From positions 992,001-1,056,000 of the forward strand of contig NZ_CP101154.1 of the NCBI RefSeq assembly GCF_024298905.1: a stretch of 64,000 nucleotides of DNA, read 5' to 3'. The DNA is from Natronomonas marina (lineage in GTDB: Archaea; Halobacteriota; Halobacteria; Halobacteriales; Haloarculaceae). The position numbers were made by a program, and so were the translations under genes. Positions 4,432-64,000 of this stretch are shown piece by piece. A model generated the notes under the pieces. The model was not told the origin of the DNA and did no database searches. It saw nothing but the letters and a program-made list of their open reading frames with translations. The number at the start of each line of letters is the position of its first letter. The stretch's first letter is position 1.

Positions 4432-4506
4432 CGGACCGGGCGGGGTCGAGCGGCGGGCCGCCCGCCGACCGGGTTCGACAGTTGACGAAATCTCCGTCGA
4501 CAAATC

Positions 4507-4513
4507 CTTATAT
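4507..4513 (+). promoter_or_regulatory. TATA box of HMG-CoA synthase gene
   Basis: CTTATAT is centred about 25 bp before the ATG at 4535, as expected for a leaderless haloarchaeal transcript. Confidence 0.6.
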
Positions 4514-4534
4514 CGGTCTCCCCTCCACCCGGAC

Positions 4535-5878
4535 ATGACCGACACCAGCGTGGGCATCGACGCCGTAGAGATTCACGCCGGCAAGCTAAAACTCGACCTC
4601 GCGGAGACGTTCGCACCCGCGATGGGCGACGACCCCGGCAAGTACACGAAGGGACTGGGGCTGTACGCCAGTTCGCTGCCGGATACCTACGAGGACATCG
4701 TGACGATGGGCGCGAACGCGGCCCACCGGCTGATGGAGCGGAAGGGACTGGAACCCGAAGACATCGGCCGCATCGACGTGGCAACCGAGTCGGCCTTCGA
4801 CCACTCCAAGCCCGTCTCGACGTACATCGCGGGCTGTCTGGAGCAGGTCTTCGAGGGCGATTTCCACCACGCCAACAAGGGCGAGCGGAAGTTCGCCTGC
4901 GTCTCGGGCACCCAGAGCGTCGACGACGCCTACAACTGGATCCGGGCCGGGCGGAACCGCGGCCGCGCGGCGCTGGTGGTGGCGACCGACACCGCACTCT
5001 ACGCCCGCGACGACCCCGGCGAGGCGACGCAGGGCGCCGGTGCCGTCGCCATGCTGATCGACGAAGACCCCGACTTCGTCGAGTTGTCGACCGAACAGGG
5101 GTACGGCAGCGCCGACGAGACGGACTTCCTCAAGCCACAGCAGCAGTTCCCCAGCGTCGACGGCAAGCGCTCGGTGAACGTCTACCTGGCGCGGATGCGG
5201 GAGGCGCTCGTCGACTACGAGTCCGTCGGCGGCGACATCCACCCCGACGACTTCCGGCTCGGCCCGTTCCACACGCCGTTCCCGGGCATGGTCCGGAAGG
5301 CTGCCGTGCTCGCCTACCGCCACATCACCCGCGACACCGAAATCGAGGAGGAACTCGCCGAGGAGATCGGCCGCCAGCCCCGTCCCGAGGCCTTCGACGA
5401 CGAGGAGGCCTACACCGAGGCCCTCGGCGAGTACACGGACGCCCTGAAGGACACCGACCACTATCAGGGGTGGTACGACCGGACCATCGACCCGACGCTC
5501 GACCTCTCCCGTGAGGTCGGCAACTGGTACACCGGCTCCGTCCACGTCGCCCGCGTCTCCGGCATCAGGTCCCTCGTCGAGGACGGCGAGGACGCCGAAG
5601 GCGAGAAGCTGCTGGTCGGCTCGTACGGCTCCGGTGCCCAGGCCGAGATCCACGTCGAGACCATCCAGGAGAACTACGAATCGGAGATCGAGGCGCTGAA
5701 CGTCGACGAGCAACTGGCGGCCCGCTACGACCTCTCGTTCGACGAGTACGAGGACGTCCACGACGCCCACAACTTCGACGAGGAGACCTCGGTCGAGGAG
5801 TTCACCGCACCGGACGGCGAGTTCGTCTTCGACGGCTGGGGCCGCATGGGCGAACGGAAGTACCGCTACGTCGAGTAG
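4535..5878 (+). CDS. hmgB: Hydroxymethylglutaryl-CoA synthase
   Basis: This 447-aa enzyme condenses acetyl-CoA with acetoacetyl-CoA to HMG-CoA in the mevalonate pathway, which feeds archaeal lipid synthesis. It has the thiolase-like initiation-enzyme fold. A Glu lies in ATESAFDHSKP, the catalytic Cys is in FACVSGTQS, and the His is in GPFHTPFPGMVRKA. The length is normal for haloarchaea. The ATG at 4535 lies about 25 bp after a TATA box; the frame is open upstream but has no promoter-supported start. The gene is monocistronic by position. It joins idi at 13658 in the isoprenoid route. Confidence 0.95.
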   Translation: MTDTSVGIDAVEIHAGKLKLDLAETFAPAMGDDPGKYTKGLGLYASSLPDTYEDIVTMGANAAHRLMERKGLEPEDIGRIDVATESAFDHSKPVSTYIAGCLEQVFEGDFHHANKGERKFACVSGTQSVDDAYNWIRAGRNRGRAALVVATDTALYARDDPGEATQGAGAVAMLIDEDPDFVELSTEQGYGSADETDFLKPQQQFPSVDGKRSVNVYLARMREALVDYESVGGDIHPDDFRLGPFHTPFPGMVRKAAVLAYRHITRDTEIEEELAEEIGRQPRPEAFDDEEAYTEALGEYTDALKDTDHYQGWYDRTIDPTLDLSREVGNWYTGSVHVARVSGIRSLVEDGEDAEGEKLLVGSYGSGAQAEIHVETIQENYESEIEALNVDEQLAARYDLSFDEYEDVHDAHNFDEETSVEEFTAPDGEFVFDGWGRMGERKYRYVE

Positions 5879-5931
5879 TCGGCAACTGAGCCCGACCGGA
5901 CGCTTTTGTGGTCGCACCTCGTCCTCGGGGC

Positions 5932-6990
5932 ATGTTCGCCGGGGGTGGACTGATCGAGTTTCTCAACAGCCCGGTCGGTATCGCGGTGCTGGCCGTCGCC
6001 GCCCTCCCCGTCACCGTCGGGGTCGGCTACCTCCTCGTCAGAATCGGCTTCCGTCTCGTGTCGGTCCTCGTCCGCCCGACGAGGCGGGTCGTCGGTCTCT
6101 TCCCCGAGGGACCCGCCGGCGTGGTCGCGGTCACGACGCTGCTCGTGACCGCGCTCGTCTTCGGCGTCGCCGCGCCCCTGCCGAACCGGGTCGGGACGCT
6201 CGGCGATGGCGGCGCCGGCGACACCGCCGGCGGCTTCCTCGAGACGGCGTTCGACGAACGGGACGGCGTCGTCCGGGCCGGCGACGGGACCGTCAGCCTG
6301 AGCCCGACGGGCTACGACCGGCCGGAGCCGGACACCGCCGGCGACCGCCTGAAAGACGCCTGGCTCCGGGCCGGCGAGACGCCCGGGGGCACCCCGCTAC
6401 CGAACGGTTCGGTCGACCGACTGGACCTCTACGTGACCGTCGTCCACGGGTCGAACGTCGAACCGCTGACCGACCGGGACCGGCGCCATCTCCGGGAAAT
6501 CTGGGCGACGATGCCGGTCCGGAACCCCGACGGCTCGACGGGCATCGACATCCACATCCGGTCCGGCGGCGAACTGGACCGGTCGGTGACCTTCGGCGTC
6601 GGCGACGGCTCCGACCACACCCGCTACTACACCGAAGAGCGGATGGGCCCGCGGCACTGCCGGTACCACCTCGTCGTGCTCGGCGAACCGACGGACGATG
6701 TCCACGGGTGGGGCACGACCCCCGGCTACAGCAGTTTCGTCACCGGCGTCCCCCTCGAGGAGCAGCGCGGCACCTACACCCACCGCGCCAGCGTGATGAC
6801 CCACGAGTTGCTCCACAACGTCGTCGGCCACATCGACGACCCCAGTCTCCCGGACGGGGGCGCCCACACCCGCGAGGGGTGGCTCGCCGACGACGAGTAC
6901 CTCTCGGCGGCGACCGCGGCGCAGTTGAACGAGACGCGGTTCCGGGGGTCGGGCTTCTACCAGCGCGAGATTTGTGGGGAAGATAGGTGA
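5932..6990 (+). CDS. Membrane protein with HExxH metalloprotease-like motif
   Basis: The protein is 352 aa. Two hydrophobic helices (about residues 14-36 and 60-80) are followed by a long soluble region that is probably outside the membrane. Residues 291-300 read HELLHNVVGH, giving HExxH plus a further His four residues on, a plausible zinc site. I cannot place it in a named peptidase family, because the spacing is not the HExxHxxGxxH of metzincins. ATG 5932 is preferred over the upstream GTG because a T-rich box sits about 28 bp before it. The gene converges on another HExxH membrane protein at 7023-7922. Confidence 0.6.
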   Translation: MFAGGGLIEFLNSPVGIAVLAVAALPVTVGVGYLLVRIGFRLVSVLVRPTRRVVGLFPEGPAGVVAVTTLLVTALVFGVAAPLPNRVGTLGDGGAGDTAGGFLETAFDERDGVVRAGDGTVSLSPTGYDRPEPDTAGDRLKDAWLRAGETPGGTPLPNGSVDRLDLYVTVVHGSNVEPLTDRDRRHLREIWATMPVRNPDGSTGIDIHIRSGGELDRSVTFGVGDGSDHTRYYTEERMGPRHCRYHLVVLGEPTDDVHGWGTTPGYSSFVTGVPLEEQRGTYTHRASVMTHELLHNVVGHIDDPSLPDGGAHTREGWLADDEYLSAATAAQLNETRFRGSGFYQREICGEDR

Positions 6991-30342: not shown

Positions 30343-30534
30343 ACTGACGGTGCGCGAGCGTCCGACTAAACCGTTACGGACCCGTCGCCCTCCCTGGACG
30401 ACCGGTCGGTCGGCTGACCGAGAGCCCCGGCAGGATGCTCCGTCCGGTGCGCAGGCAGACGAATCATTCGTACAGTTCGGATGTTAAACGGCTGGAAGTA
30501 TATAGAACAATAGTTCCCACATTCCGATACAAAC

Positions 30535-31224
30535 CTAACAGGTTGAGCCTGTGACAACACAACTTAGGCCGGCTGCCACAGCCACGAAAATGGCAATTAT
30601 TATGAACAGGACTGCTTCGCCGATTTCTTCGTCCATGATATTTTTATTAGCCCATTCCATCATATCCTCCATTGCATCTTGCATTTCTCCAGACGTTGGG
30701 GTTCCGCTTGGAGTACATGTGCTAAAACAGATCCCTGCTGTTTCTTGACCGATCTCGAAACAAAGGTTCCCGTTGAAAGGATTCTCTCGAACTCCTATCC
30801 AAAACTGATGGTCAAAAGTAATCCCTTCATCAAGTTTCGTTCTCTCAAAGGTGATATCCACAGCCGCATCAAGGTCGCGAGTATTATCCGGGCCACAGGA
30901 ACGGTTTGCGTTTGAATCTACATACGACGTAGATAGGCAATATTCTTCTCCAAATAAGCTGACCTTTTGACAGGCACTAATGGGGAACGGACCTGAAGAG
31001 GAGGTTGATTGGACTCCACTAGGCGAACACTCTGCGTCGTGAACGTCTTCAAAATAATCATGCGCCTCAGAGTCAGTCATCCCCGCATCTTTTAACTCTT
31101 GAATATAATCAGTACAATATTCGTAGTATGGATATCTGGCACTGACAACTTTTGTCAAAATACCGCTTGCAGCCATCCCACTAGTACTCAGTGCAGCTGT
31201 TCGGAACACATCTCTCCGTTTCAT
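30535..31224 (-). CDS. Cys-rich Tat-signal protein with C-terminal membrane helix
   Basis: The protein is 229 aa, encoded in DNA far more AT-rich than its neighbours. It begins MKRRDVFRTAALSTSGMAAS, a twin-arginine-like signal. Ten cysteines are scattered through the chain. The last 30 residues are a long hydrophobic helix (AVLFIIIAIFVAVAAGLSC) ending in Cys. It resembles no family I know. Secreted Cys-rich halocin precursors have a Tat leader and Cys-rich C-terminus, but there is no sequence match I can claim. It is divergent from the degenerate M48-like gene across an AT-rich promoter. Confidence 0.6.
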   Translation of the reverse strand: MKRRDVFRTAALSTSGMAASGILTKVVSARYPYYEYCTDYIQELKDAGMTDSEAHDYFEDVHDAECSPSGVQSTSSSGPFPISACQKVSLFGEEYCLSTSYVDSNANRSCGPDNTRDLDAAVDITFERTKLDEGITFDHQFWIGVRENPFNGNLCFEIGQETAGICFSTCTPSGTPTSGEMQDAMEDMMEWANKNIMDEEIGEAVLFIIIAIFVAVAAGLSCVVTGSTC

Positions 31225-31303
31225 ATTACAAGATACTTTTTCTGTATATTAAATATTGTCTTTAGATAAAATATATTAATGAATGGGTGATTTGTAGGGC
31301 ATA

Positions 31304-31981
31304 ATGACCGGACAAGTCGCGTCATCCATCGCCGTAAGTATAATCGCTCTACCGGTGGCGATCGCTGCGACGTGGACGATATACGTGGCTACCGGCTACG
31401 TCGTCTGGGCGGTGAAAGGATCGGCCACCGATCTCGAAGCCGACATCGACGTTCCGCCGGCGGATCAAAAGAGAGATGCGAAGGTGAAGGTCATCGACAG
31501 CCGGTGGGTCTCGGCGACGCGGTTCAGCACCATCACCCCGCGATGGATGGTGAGTTCGGCCGCTGTAACGTCGCTCTCGAGAGCCCAGCGGGACTGTCTG
31601 GTTTCACACGAGGTGTCCTACGTCCACAGCAGAGGTCCGTGGATCTATTACGGGACGGCAGCGGTAGGAGCCCTGCCCGTGTTCTTTGCGCCCGAGTTGA
31701 TTGCCACCGTCGTGTCCGGGGTTCCGCCACTCGTCTCGGTGGTACTGGTGGCCGTCGGGGACTTCGCCGTCTGCCTGCCGGCGGTCAAACGGTGGCTGGT
31801 CTACCGGGCGGACCGCCGGGCAGCGGCGAACTGTGACACCGAGACGTATCTCGACTTCCTCGAAACCACGGCACGAGTCGAACCGTCCCGGCCGGTCTGG
31901 CTCCGGTGGCTGACACCGACCCCAAAGCGGCGGCTCGAAAAGTTCCGGGATCACGTTTCTGCGGGCGAAACTGCGGATTGA
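31304..31981 (+). CDS. Degenerate M48/M56-like membrane protein
   Basis: The protein is 225 aa with one N-terminal and two internal hydrophobic segments. ATRFSTITPRWMVSSAAVTS followed by LSRAQRDCLVSHEVSYVHSR matches the region before and at the zinc site of HtpX/M48-type proteases. There the motif would be HExxH, but here it is HEVSY, so the second His is Tyr. It is probably catalytically inactive. The ATG at 31304 follows an AT-rich region shared with the divergent Cys-rich protein. It may be a partner or immunity factor for that protein, which is inference. Confidence 0.55.
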   Translation: MTGQVASSIAVSIIALPVAIAATWTIYVATGYVVWAVKGSATDLEADIDVPPADQKRDAKVKVIDSRWVSATRFSTITPRWMVSSAAVTSLSRAQRDCLVSHEVSYVHSRGPWIYYGTAAVGALPVFFAPELIATVVSGVPPLVSVVLVAVGDFAVCLPAVKRWLVYRADRRAAANCDTETYLDFLETTARVEPSRPVWLRWLTPTPKRRLEKFRDHVSAGETAD

Positions 31982-32010
31982 TCCGCCGAGAAACACGGTA
32001 GGACCGGCGC

Positions 32011-59683: not shown

Positions 59684-61501
59684 ATGAGTGACGGCGAGGA
59701 CGTCAGCCGGCGCGAGCAATTTCGGGCGCTGGTGCGGGTCGCCCGGTACAGGCCGACGCTCACAGCTGGCATCGTCGCCGGGGGCGTCTTCGCGGCGCTA
59801 CTCGAGGGAGTCGGACTGGGGTTCATTTTGCCTATCGTCGAGATCGTGCAGTCGCCCGGGAATCCGGCGCAGCAGGCCGACGGGATACTGCTTGGGTTCG
59901 TTCGGGTCTACCAGTTCCTCGGCATTCCGTTCACGCTCGGGTTCGTCGTCGCCGGTGTGAGCCTCGTGTTGACAGTTCGGTGGACGACGACGTTTCTCGT
60001 CAGGTGGCTCCGGAGTGCGCTTGCCATCGATTACACCCGAGAGCTTCAGGAACGGGCGTTCGACAACGCCCTGGATGCTCGAATCGAGTACTTCGACCAG
60101 GAGGGCTCCGACGATATACTCAACGCCATCGTGACGCAGGCGGAGTACGCCGGACGGACGATACGGTACGTCATCAACTTTGTTGAGCAGGGGCTCCTTG
60201 CATTTATGTACCTCGTGGTTGCGCTCGTTATCGCACCGTGGCTGGCATTTTTTTCCATCGTCTTCCTCGGGGGGTTTGCGGTACTATTCCGAGTCGCTAT
60301 CGAATCGGGCTACTCCCTCGGCGATAGGGTCGCCGACGCCAACGAGCGGGTCCAGGAAGCGGCTCAAGCAGGGACCCAAGGAATCCGAGATACGAAGCTA
60401 TTTGGGCTGAAGGGCGAGCTATTCAACGATTTCCAAACGTCAGTCAACCAATATGCGACTTCACTAATCAGACAGCGTCGCAACGAGGAGATTATACAGA
60501 ATTTCTATAACCTCCTGACCGCGGTTTCAGTCTTTCTATTGATTTTCGTCGCGATCACGTTCGCGAACCTTTCGCTCGGCGCACTCGGGGTCTTTCTATT
60601 CGCGATGTTCCGGCTCGGACCGAAAGCCAGCAGCCTGAACTCGAAGTTTTACCGTATCGAGAACCACCTTCCGCATCTCGTCCGGACTCAAACGTTCATC
60701 AACGACCTCAAGCGGAATTCCGAGCCGACGGCTGCCTCAGAACCAGTACCGGAAGAAGTACGGACCGTGGAGTTCGACGATATCCGGTTCTCCTACAGGG
60801 GGCAGGATGAAGAAGCCCTGAAGGGAGTATCCTTCGAGTTCGATAAGGGCGATTTCATCGGATTTGTGGGAGAGTCCGGCGCGGGAAAATCTACCATCGT
60901 CTCGATGCTGGTGCGGATGTACGAACCCGACTCCGGAGCGATACGGATCAACGGCAGACCGATACACAAGATGGACATACAGGAGTGGCGCTCGAAGGTC
61001 TCAGTAGTTCGCCAAGACCCATTCATCTTCAACGACACCTTGAGGTATAACCTCACTATCGGAAACCGGGACGTTTCCGACGCGGAATTAAACAGGGTCG
61101 CCTGTATTGCCAAAATCAACGAGTTTCTTGATCAATTACCCAACGGGTACGATTCGCAAATAGGGGACAACGGTGTTCGGTTGTCTGGAGGACAACGGCA
61201 ACGCGTTGCTTTAGCTCGTGCCTTGATTAAGGATGCAGATATATTAATTCTGGATGAAGCAACAAGCGATCTAGACTCGAATTTAGAAAAGCAAGTTCAC
61301 AAAGCCATTATAGAGATGCAAGAGGATTATGCTATTGTCGCAGTTTCTCATGTATTCTCAAGCATACAAAATTCAGACAACATATTCACAATTATAGATG
61401 GGAAAGTGAAAGAATCAGGCAAACATGGAGAGCTGATCGAGGAAGGTGGGAAATATTCAACATTACATGGTTTACAAACAGGGGAAGAACTATCTGATTA
61501 G
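59684..61501 (+). CDS. ABC exporter (fused membrane and ATPase domains)
   Basis: The protein is 605 aa. Six membrane helices (residues about 30-320) are followed by an ABC ATPase: Walker A GESGAGKST, signature VRLSGGQRQRVALARALI, Walker B ILILDEATS, and H-loop VSHVF. It is a type IV exporter of the kind that moves lipid-linked glycans, lipids or peptides; with the neighbours a surface-glycan role is likely. Base composition changes from GC-rich to AT-rich near 61.2 kb, inside the ATPase domain. The next genes lie on the other strand. Confidence 0.9.
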   Translation: MSDGEDVSRREQFRALVRVARYRPTLTAGIVAGGVFAALLEGVGLGFILPIVEIVQSPGNPAQQADGILLGFVRVYQFLGIPFTLGFVVAGVSLVLTVRWTTTFLVRWLRSALAIDYTRELQERAFDNALDARIEYFDQEGSDDILNAIVTQAEYAGRTIRYVINFVEQGLLAFMYLVVALVIAPWLAFFSIVFLGGFAVLFRVAIESGYSLGDRVADANERVQEAAQAGTQGIRDTKLFGLKGELFNDFQTSVNQYATSLIRQRRNEEIIQNFYNLLTAVSVFLLIFVAITFANLSLGALGVFLFAMFRLGPKASSLNSKFYRIENHLPHLVRTQTFINDLKRNSEPTAASEPVPEEVRTVEFDDIRFSYRGQDEEALKGVSFEFDKGDFIGFVGESGAGKSTIVSMLVRMYEPDSGAIRINGRPIHKMDIQEWRSKVSVVRQDPFIFNDTLRYNLTIGNRDVSDAELNRVACIAKINEFLDQLPNGYDSQIGDNGVRLSGGQRQRVALARALIKDADILILDEATSDLDSNLEKQVHKAIIEMQEDYAIVAVSHVFSSIQNSDNIFTIIDGKVKESGKHGELIEEGGKYSTLHGLQTGEELSD

Positions 61502-61574
61502 TTACTATACCCAAGATAGGATTTTACTCCAAAATAGAAATATAACATCATTTTCTGAAATAATCTCGGGCAAG

Positions 61575-62339
61575 TCACGTCGCTTCGACAAGAGCTGTGG
61601 GAGAATCAGTTGAATTATCCATGACAAGGTCATTATTCAGAGACTTCCACTGAGAATTCTCTCGGTGATTCTGAATTTGAAGATCATATCCATGTGTCTG
61701 CAAGAAATCTTGGAGCTCCGTCCAATGTTTTCCCCCTTGAAGCTTTTCTGGATGGAGCTCAATTAAAAAAGTAGTTTCCGACTCCAGCAATGATGTGGCA
61801 CCCTTGACTGCTTCAAATTCTTGTCCTTCTATATCTATTGTTACAACATTCGGTAGTATTCTATTTTCGAAAATTTCGTTCAGACACGCCCCATCTTCTG
61901 ACCCAGAATCTATGAACGCTTCTATCACTTCCACCTCTTTCGGCACATTTCTTTTTAGTATCTCGGAACGGAATGGTGAGGCTTCCACCAAGACAATTTG
62001 ATTTGGAGGGACGCCAGCAAGGAGGGCTAACTTGCAATTGTACCCGTAACCTGCCCCGACATCTAAAAAATGACTCTCCGAATCCAGTAATTCGATTAAT
62101 CGGTCGACTAAGCCGGGTTCGTAGAGACAGGGACTCCGCTCCGATATTAGCCCTGCAGACTTTGGAACTTCAAGCGTAAAATCGCCATAATCGCTGCAGA
62201 ACGAGAGTGTTTCCAAGCGGGTGTATTTGCCCCGGTATCGCTGTACGGGTTCGCTGTAGTATATTTGACCAATATGTGTGCGCTTTAGTCTATATCTAAG
62301 CGAATGGGGCAAAGTTCTTCTGACTTTATCAATCATCAT
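61575..62339 (-). CDS. FkbM-family methyltransferase
   Basis: The protein is 254 aa. ESHFLDVGAGYGYNCKLALL is the SAM-binding loop. IVLVEASPFRSEILKRNV and VVTIDIEGQEFEAVKGATSL are FkbM hallmarks. It would O-methylate a sugar or similar acceptor. The composition is AT-rich like the rest of the island. Two adjacent ATG codons (62339, 62336) are possible starts; the longer frame begins at a TTG. The glycosyltransferase-like gene lies upstream on the same strand with a 60-bp gap. Confidence 0.85.
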   Translation of the reverse strand: MMIDKVRRTLPHSLRYRLKRTHIGQIYYSEPVQRYRGKYTRLETLSFCSDYGDFTLEVPKSAGLISERSPCLYEPGLVDRLIELLDSESHFLDVGAGYGYNCKLALLAGVPPNQIVLVEASPFRSEILKRNVPKEVEVIEAFIDSGSEDGACLNEIFENRILPNVVTIDIEGQEFEAVKGATSLLESETTFLIELHPEKLQGGKHWTELQDFLQTHGYDLQIQNHRENSQWKSLNNDLVMDNSTDSPTALVEAT

Positions 62340-62399
62340 AGTCAATCAAAAAGAGCACTTGCACATTTACTTATCGGGATCGTGTTTACGAGGACATAT

Positions 62400-63230
62400 T
62401 TATTTCAACTTGGATAGTTGCTCCAGAACTCCTTTGACTACTCCGGTGATTCCTTCGTTTTTATACCGAGTTCTAATTTTATTTGCGTACGTTCTGCTGT
62501 GGATAACATTGTAACCCCCGGTTCCATTGGGCGCAAATGAACGAGCAATAGTTTGATTGTTTAGGGTGTTTCGTGCTTCTTCAATAGAGTATTGTTCGAC
62601 AGCACCTTCAGAACTGACGTCTAATATTCTACCATGGAAACAAATGATTTGCCCTACCGCCAATCCAGGATACCTAAATTTGCAATTATATTCGGGAGGT
62701 AATGTAGCGACTCGCAAGTCACTATGATATAGGGTATGTCTGAAACTTGGCTGATCACCTGGCCGAAGATTTGTCCGTTCCTGATACGTTCTTTTCCACC
62801 GGTCAATAAATGATTTAACATTAAGTGACTTTTTGAATGCTATAATCCCTGTATTGTATTCCGGGAAGGTTTTGGGTACATCTGGATTTTCATAAGCCAT
62901 CCGGCTGTAATTATCATGGTTATGAACAGCAGCTATATCAAATTGATCTAGGATTTCGAACACCGGGTCTAAATCGCCATCAACCCAAATATCTGTATCC
63001 ATGTACAAAGATCGATCAAATGGCAACTCCAACGCGCCCGGTTTATCAGCGAAGGAACCCGATAAGGAAGTTTCGATACTCAAATCAAACACATCTGATA
63101 CTTCAGAAGTGTCATCGGTTATAATTCCAATAGTAAGATCTGGGTTTGATTCTCGAACAGAATAAGCTGAGAGCTCAGCTTCGGCAAGTAATTGGTCTGC
63201 TGCACAGATATATACAACTCCTCGGGTCAT
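62400..63230 (-). CDS. Glycosyltransferase, nucleotide-diphospho-sugar fold
   Basis: The protein is 276 aa. RSLYMDTDIWVDGDLDPVFE contains the DxD metal-binding motif of GT8-like and related transferases, and EYNTGIIAFKKS follows, as in that fold. The N-terminus MTRGVVYICAADQLLAEAEL is the usual start of the family. It should transfer a sugar from a nucleotide donor onto a glycan. It is AT-rich, and its ATG lies about 200 bp from the divergent deacetylase-like gene. Confidence 0.75.
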   Translation of the reverse strand: MTRGVVYICAADQLLAEAELSAYSVRESNPDLTIGIITDDTSEVSDVFDLSIETSLSGSFADKPGALELPFDRSLYMDTDIWVDGDLDPVFEILDQFDIAAVHNHDNYSRMAYENPDVPKTFPEYNTGIIAFKKSLNVKSFIDRWKRTYQERTNLRPGDQPSFRHTLYHSDLRVATLPPEYNCKFRYPGLAVGQIICFHGRILDVSSEGAVEQYSIEEARNTLNNQTIARSFAPNGTGGYNVIHSRTYANKIRTRYKNEGITGVVKGVLEQLSKLK

Positions 63231-63426: not shown

Positions 63427-64000
63427 ATGAAATTAGCTGTCCGGGACGATGATACCTGTTTCTACACCTCACCATCAACTCTACGGGAAGTATATGAAGA
63501 ATTTTGGGATGACATTCCAATCACGTTAGCCTGTGTCCCGAATGTGGCGGCAGATGCGGATGTAGTGATCGATATTGAAGATACAGAAACAAATCGAAAA
63601 ATTACAGAAAACCGAAGTCTAGTTGAATTTATACAACACCAAATTAAATGCGGCAGGTTCGAAGTTGCACTTCATGGGTACCATCATAATACACCAAATG
63701 ATAAACCTGAATACGTTAGTGGTGGAAAACTAAAAGAAAAAACCGCACATGGTGTAGAAATTCTTAGTGACGGATTTGATATAGAGATAGACGTATTTGT
63801 CCCTCCACACGTTAGGCTCTCAAATAGAGGCCTGAAAGCTATTGCACATGAGGGACTTAATGTGGCAAGAGGACGGGGACCACGCCCAAGAGAATTACAG
63901 ATGAGTCCTCAGTGGATTACTACGTACGGACAACTTCTTAGTTTCTATCTACAGAAGGGCCGTCAATACCGATACCCATTCCCTCTCGACTATGGGACTC
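63427..64000 (+). CDS. Polysaccharide deacetylase-like protein (DUF2334-like), 3' end outside window
   Basis: The frame is open from ATG 63427 to the last base (191 full codons). MKLAVRDDDTCFYTSPSTLR has the acidic metal-binding start (DDD) of NodB/DUF2334 deacetylases. CGRFEVALHGYHHN gives the HxxxH-like HGYHH. DVFVPPHVRLSNRGLKAIAH is the next family block. It probably deacetylates or modifies an envelope sugar. It is in the same AT-rich island as its neighbours. The C-terminal half is beyond the window. Confidence 0.7.
   Translation, partial: MKLAVRDDDTCFYTSPSTLREVYEEFWDDIPITLACVPNVAADADVVIDIEDTETNRKITENRSLVEFIQHQIKCGRFEVALHGYHHNTPNDKPEYVSGGKLKEKTAHGVEILSDGFDIEIDVFVPPHVRLSNRGLKAIAHEGLNVARGRGPRPRELQMSPQWITTYGQLLSFYLQKGRQYRYPFPLDYGT

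Follow-up and report, generated by a model that had tools for sequence, protein, structure and literature searches.

A putative recombination junction inside a haloarchaeal ABC exporter gene at the edge of an AT-rich surface-glycan island

Does an ABC exporter gene whose G+C content falls steeply within a single open frame join two ancestries, and could such a junction mark the point at which the adjoining block of surface-sugar genes entered the chromosome? The gene lies in a 64,000-nucleotide stretch of Natronomonas marina DNA that was analysed as a whole (the window), on the 3.85 Mb contig of a genome of two contigs and 3.99 Mb. We find that a change of ancestry falls four-fifths along the exporter, where the AT-rich surface-sugar block starts, and we assign a probability of roughly 0.8 to the reading that the exporter is a recombinant, in which homologous recombination in the nucleotide-binding domain would have brought in the island together with the tail of a diverged homologue. 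The gene and its parts are as follows.

59684..61501, + strand: whole exporter gene, putatively hybrid; 605 aa with a transmembrane domain and an ATPase domain (PF00664, PF00005)
59684..61085, + strand: resident-type 5′ part, comprising the transmembrane domain and the front of the ATPase domain, with Walker A at residue 396; GC3 ~0.72
61085..61187, + strand: putative junction interval, codons 467–501, best point 61124, just 5′ of LSGGQ (61181–61195)
61187..61501, + strand: apparently foreign-type 3′ part, comprising the signature, Walker B, D-loop, H-loop and C-terminus; AT-rich codons

A composition step within the exporter gene

By its sequence, the gene is an ABC exporter of the MsbA/PglK/ABCB kind. 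ABC_membrane (PF00664) and ABC_tran (PF00005) both score above cut-off, and Walker A (residue 396), the Q-loop, LSGGQ (500), Walker B (521), the D-loop and the H-loop histidine (556) are all retained. NCBIfam models gave near full-length similarity (MsbA, 1.4e-94; HepA, 8.4e-96; PglK, 6.4e-55), but under the curated cut-offs (317.6 compared to 602 bits for MsbA, 186.6 compared to 1000 for PglK); because the scores fall far under the MsbA, HepA and PglK cut-offs, none of these names fits, although the architecture and the neighbouring glycosyltransferase genes are those of MsbA/PglK-type flippases of lipid-linked glycans. Full-length identity is 71–74% to exporter homologues of Halapricum, Natronomonas, Halobiforma and others. 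The 5′ neighbours, which are chromosomal in composition (~0.70 GC), we take from their sequences to be glmU-like, glmS-like and uppP-like.

In 300-b windows, GC drops from 0.56 (60700–60999) through 0.46 (61000–61299) to 0.37–0.40 (61100–61599). The change point in GC at third codon positions (GC3) lies at codon 480, or 61124, with a GC3 of 0.72 before and 0.32 after it and a support interval of codons 467–501 (61085–61187). The LR for this step was 33.0, compared to a permutation 99% level of 6.4 and a maximum of 9.1 in 300 codon permutations, and the step is the most negative among 106 haloarchaeal homologues (z −4.3; codons 31–470 compared to 506–600). Synonymous codons from 502 on fit the island, scoring +0.8 to +1.1 per codon relative to the backbone, as do the island genes themselves, whereas the synonymous choice in codons 1–467 does not. 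A sequence-only reading of this DNA had claimed a composition switch inside one ABC transporter gene, with an unbroken frame and AT-rich codons matching the downstream island; sliding G+C and codon usage both confirm the step, the codon match holds, and the frame at 59684–61501 is open end to end (605 codons, no internal stops). Its description of the gene as GC-rich up to ~61.1 kb was right about the drop but overstated the richness: the 5′ part has an intermediate GC of 0.50–0.65, below the 0.67–0.73 of the backbone, and the same is true of its homologues. There are therefore two levels, one from backbone to exporter and one from exporter to island. Its placement of the AT-rich codons after the signature motif was too late, as the best point lies ~60 b before LSGGQ and the motif sits at the edge of the interval. 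As a separate observation, a weaker second fall occurs inside the 5′ part at 60220–60800, from a GC3 of ~0.80 (codons 1–180) to 0.63–0.68 (codons 181–360).

Different relatives on the two sides of the putative junction

Compared to its ten best homologues, from the clade of L009, L170, L039 and L041, the exporter is 72–79% identical over residues 21–470 and only 40–53% identical over residues 531–600; in 261 pairs of like 5′ identity, the exporter excluded, identity at residues 531–600 is 61–91%. The nearest relatives are L170 and L009 for residues 21–470 (79%) and L121, L122 and L129 for residues 531–600 (56–57%). When scaled by the usual divergence per site, amino-acid divergence changes at codon 478, with a wide interval (codons 376–556), and this best point coincides with codon 480 from third positions. 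At sites separating the exporter's own clade from L121/L122/L129, the own clade is matched over the other at a ratio of 57:6 before codon 470, compared to 3:6 beyond it (Fisher p 0.0004), and MaxChi with L170 and L129 as parents reaches 31.4, exceeding all 1000 permutations; AT-driven convergence could account for some of the tail residues shared with the other clade. The divergence step is absent in all 11 5′-clade members (LR ≤ 0.71 compared to 6.7), and the composition step is absent in its nearest members, L009, L170/L038, L039 and L041. Shared relatives and a shared composition change in both halves, the pattern that had been set against a junction, is thus not what we observe; the closest relatives differ, and the coincident GC3 and divergence steps support the proposal of a recombination junction in the conserved ATPase domain.

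An AU test restricted to the 3′ part (~105 columns) did not reject the exporter's own 5′ clade (p 0.378), an outcome explained by the very long tail branch (1.46). We sought a donor of the tail in genomes of the order (392), the family (146) and the phylum (393), and in plasmids and viral contigs. No close donor was found: the best tail match among the genomes searched was 57–62%, the plasmids held nothing closer, and the viral contigs held no tail match. Both results would suit a history without exchange inside the gene, in which the island was inserted alongside the exporter and the 3′ end of the exporter then drifted to AT under relaxed constraint, as would the deviation of the tail at positions that are nearly fixed among homologues, such as AHRLST changed to SHVFSS. 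We consider this history improbable. A mutation bias does not end within ~100 b inside a gene, and codons 502–530, which are invariant in the protein, already have AT-rich third positions (GC3 ~0.23). Moreover, the frame, the stop position and all catalytic motifs are intact, and other homologues that adjoin AT-rich islands lack a comparably fast tail. The GC3 step, the coincident protein step, the island-like codon usage and the position at the island edge are together predicted by a crossover and not by slow change in place.

The island and its possible route of entry

The island spans 7.5 kb (61.1–68.7 kb), and its genes have a GC of 0.37–0.48, compared to 0.67–0.73 around it. Its first genes are listed below.

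61575..62345, − strand: FkbM-type methyltransferase (PF05050), first island gene
62400..63230, − strand: GT8-type glycosyltransferase, with relatives near exporters of the same family in other genomes
63427..64260, + strand: DUF2334 gene, polysaccharide deacetylase-like, extending past the window end at 64000
64275–65183 on the window scale (L058:275–1183): 302-aa protein, no Pfam or NCBIfam match

The 302-aa protein we take, by eye, to be sulfatase-like (TADHGE); the island also encodes two GT4 enzymes and a membrane protein. Best relatives of the island genes are 32–46% identical, fall in several families and are uninformative about the donor, and related species (one genome per species) carry other genes 3′ of the exporter. 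Past the window, the island takes up bases 1–4728 of L058. Its right end is intergenic, at 68.73–68.76 kb, beyond which GC is back to 0.67 and more glycan genes follow. A second in-gene junction, considered in the downstream membrane-protein gene, was rejected for want of a step (LR 2.5).

This right end bears on whether an assembly artefact fused two genomes. The join lies in conserved DNA, which is error-prone for assemblers, and the contamination estimate of the genome is 4.3%, but the join falls within the 3.85 Mb contig of a genome that consists of two contigs and is 99.98% complete, and the island ends 7.5 kb further along the same contig, where chromosomal composition returns. We find such an artefact scarcely credible. 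Site-specific or mobile-element insertion that displaced the old 3′ end without homologous pairing, in the manner of Rhs genes, is very unlikely. The sharp junction and the AT-rich 3′ end beside variable genes do resemble an Rhs core and tip (PMC2935791). However, we detected no direct or inverted repeats of at least 9 b common to both island edges, no tRNA gene in a search at the island and no recognisable integrase or transposase among the island genes. Furthermore, the new tail is homologous to the old one and aligns with it in register, and pairing therefore suffices.

Under homologous recombination, an AT-rich surface-glycan cassette of ~7.5 kb, with the terminal part of a related exporter gene at its incoming edge, would have entered this chromosome. 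The left crossover would fall within codons ~467–501 of the resident exporter, in conserved DNA beside the signature motif, and the right end of the cassette would lie between genes at ~68.73–68.76 kb. The junction interval adjoins the most conserved DNA of the exporter gene (nucleotide identity 0.70–0.72), and pairing there by a RecA-type protein, which in archaea is RadA, could yield the left crossover with frame and ATPase motifs preserved, swapping the last ~105–135 codons for those of the cassette's exporter homologue. In exporters of the MsbA kind, substrate binding belongs to the transmembrane half, while the ATPase half powers the cycle. The resident transmembrane domain, which is expected to determine the substrate, would stay, with foreign sequence confined to the rear of the ATPase domain, so that export of the resident or a similar glycan by the hybrid is plausible. 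The hybrid probably continues to function as an exporter or flippase of a lipid-linked glycan, a substrate that we infer from the gene neighbourhood alone. An AlphaFold model of the hybrid built with 16 sequences had a mean pLDDT of 60, with values below 50 across much of the ATPase domain, and because of this low pLDDT we draw no structural conclusion from it.

Replacement flexible genomic islands, known from bacteria and one archaeon, are blocks of surface-glycan genes exchanged by homologous crossovers in their conserved flanks (Lopez-Perez et al., 2014; PMC4033161). The exporter locus is alike in having a glycan set of foreign composition apparently swapped as a block, a putative left crossover in conserved sequence and no integrase site. 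The published islands were compared among strains of one species and showed boundary peaks of synonymous change, whereas the putative left crossover here maps within a coding sequence, and the incoming tail shows divergence of the between-genera level or more instead of being exchanged within one species. As judged from its sequence, the locus is therefore one added case of a known kind of island exchange, with an in-gene crossover and a larger evolutionary distance. GI1 of Haloquadratum walsbyi (PMC4535781), likewise a mosaic haloarchaeal surface-structure island with detected recombination events, involves other genes at another locus, and the portion of that paper used here describes no exporter seam. 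Rhs genes (PMC2935791) also keep a conserved core and exchange their C-terminal end, but their tips differ in function, whereas the exporter's old and new ends are homologous and export would remain the function of the product. The surface sugars of haloarchaea differ among close relatives and may decide virus attachment and mating; an in-gene crossover shows how a whole glycan gene set could change in one step with export kept.

Recurrence among haloarchaeal homologues

The exporter's ATPase core (codons ~480–530) may be a standing haloarchaeal seam for the exchange of glycan cassettes, which would bring their own exporter tail and leave the resident transmembrane half in place; we hold this tentatively, at somewhat less than even odds. 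We surveyed the 106 homologues for mosaicism of the last 70 compared to the first 70 residues, with the 5′-end run as a control. MaxChi exceeded 20 at the 3′ end of 18 of 106 genes and at the 5′ end of 7 of 106, counts that are indicative only in absolute terms because the parents were picked by similarity to each part. Eight of the 18 3′-end breakpoints lie at codons 483–526, where the gene's DNA is most conserved; four of the seven genes with 5′-end mosaicism also break at codons 470–524.

The flanks differ as well. GC is lower by more than 0.1 in the 3′ flank at 27 of 100 loci and in the 5′ flank at 4 of 100, and relatives of the gene for the 302-aa protein lie within 3 kb 3′ of the exporter at 18 of 101 loci, compared to 0 of 101 for the 5′ side. 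At L207, the exporter is followed consecutively by homologues of GT4a, the 302-aa protein, a GT4 and the membrane protein. Among the other genes that turn AT-richer on their 3′ side are L068, L127, L065, L157, L011 and L159, and the 3′ ends of L127, L159 and L040 are nearest another clade. Both L127 (G241:C8:1400616-1408446) and L159 (G221:C3:107427-115254) are 84–93% identical to one clade over the first 470 residues, and their last 70 residues are nearest a distant clade (77–89%, compared to 54–70% for the front); from their sequences, these two are likely further recombinant exporters. We found no open-access paper that describes an exporter of the MsbA/PglK kind as a recurrent seam. If the seam proves general, breakpoints in the exporter gene would allow island exchange to be counted across genomes.

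Two further observations concern other DNA. In L068 (G021:C2:226000-236000), the exporter at ~4476–6273 has a strong drop in GC3 within the transmembrane domain, at codon 246, from 0.92 down to 0.58, and AT-rich DNA follows. Elsewhere in the window, a local GC dip at 30400–32000 (0.54–0.56 per kb), adjoining a CTP-synthase-like gene, resembles a small insertion and contains two open reading frames.

30535–31224, − strand: 229-aa secreted-looking ORF
31304–31981, + strand: 225-aa membrane ORF
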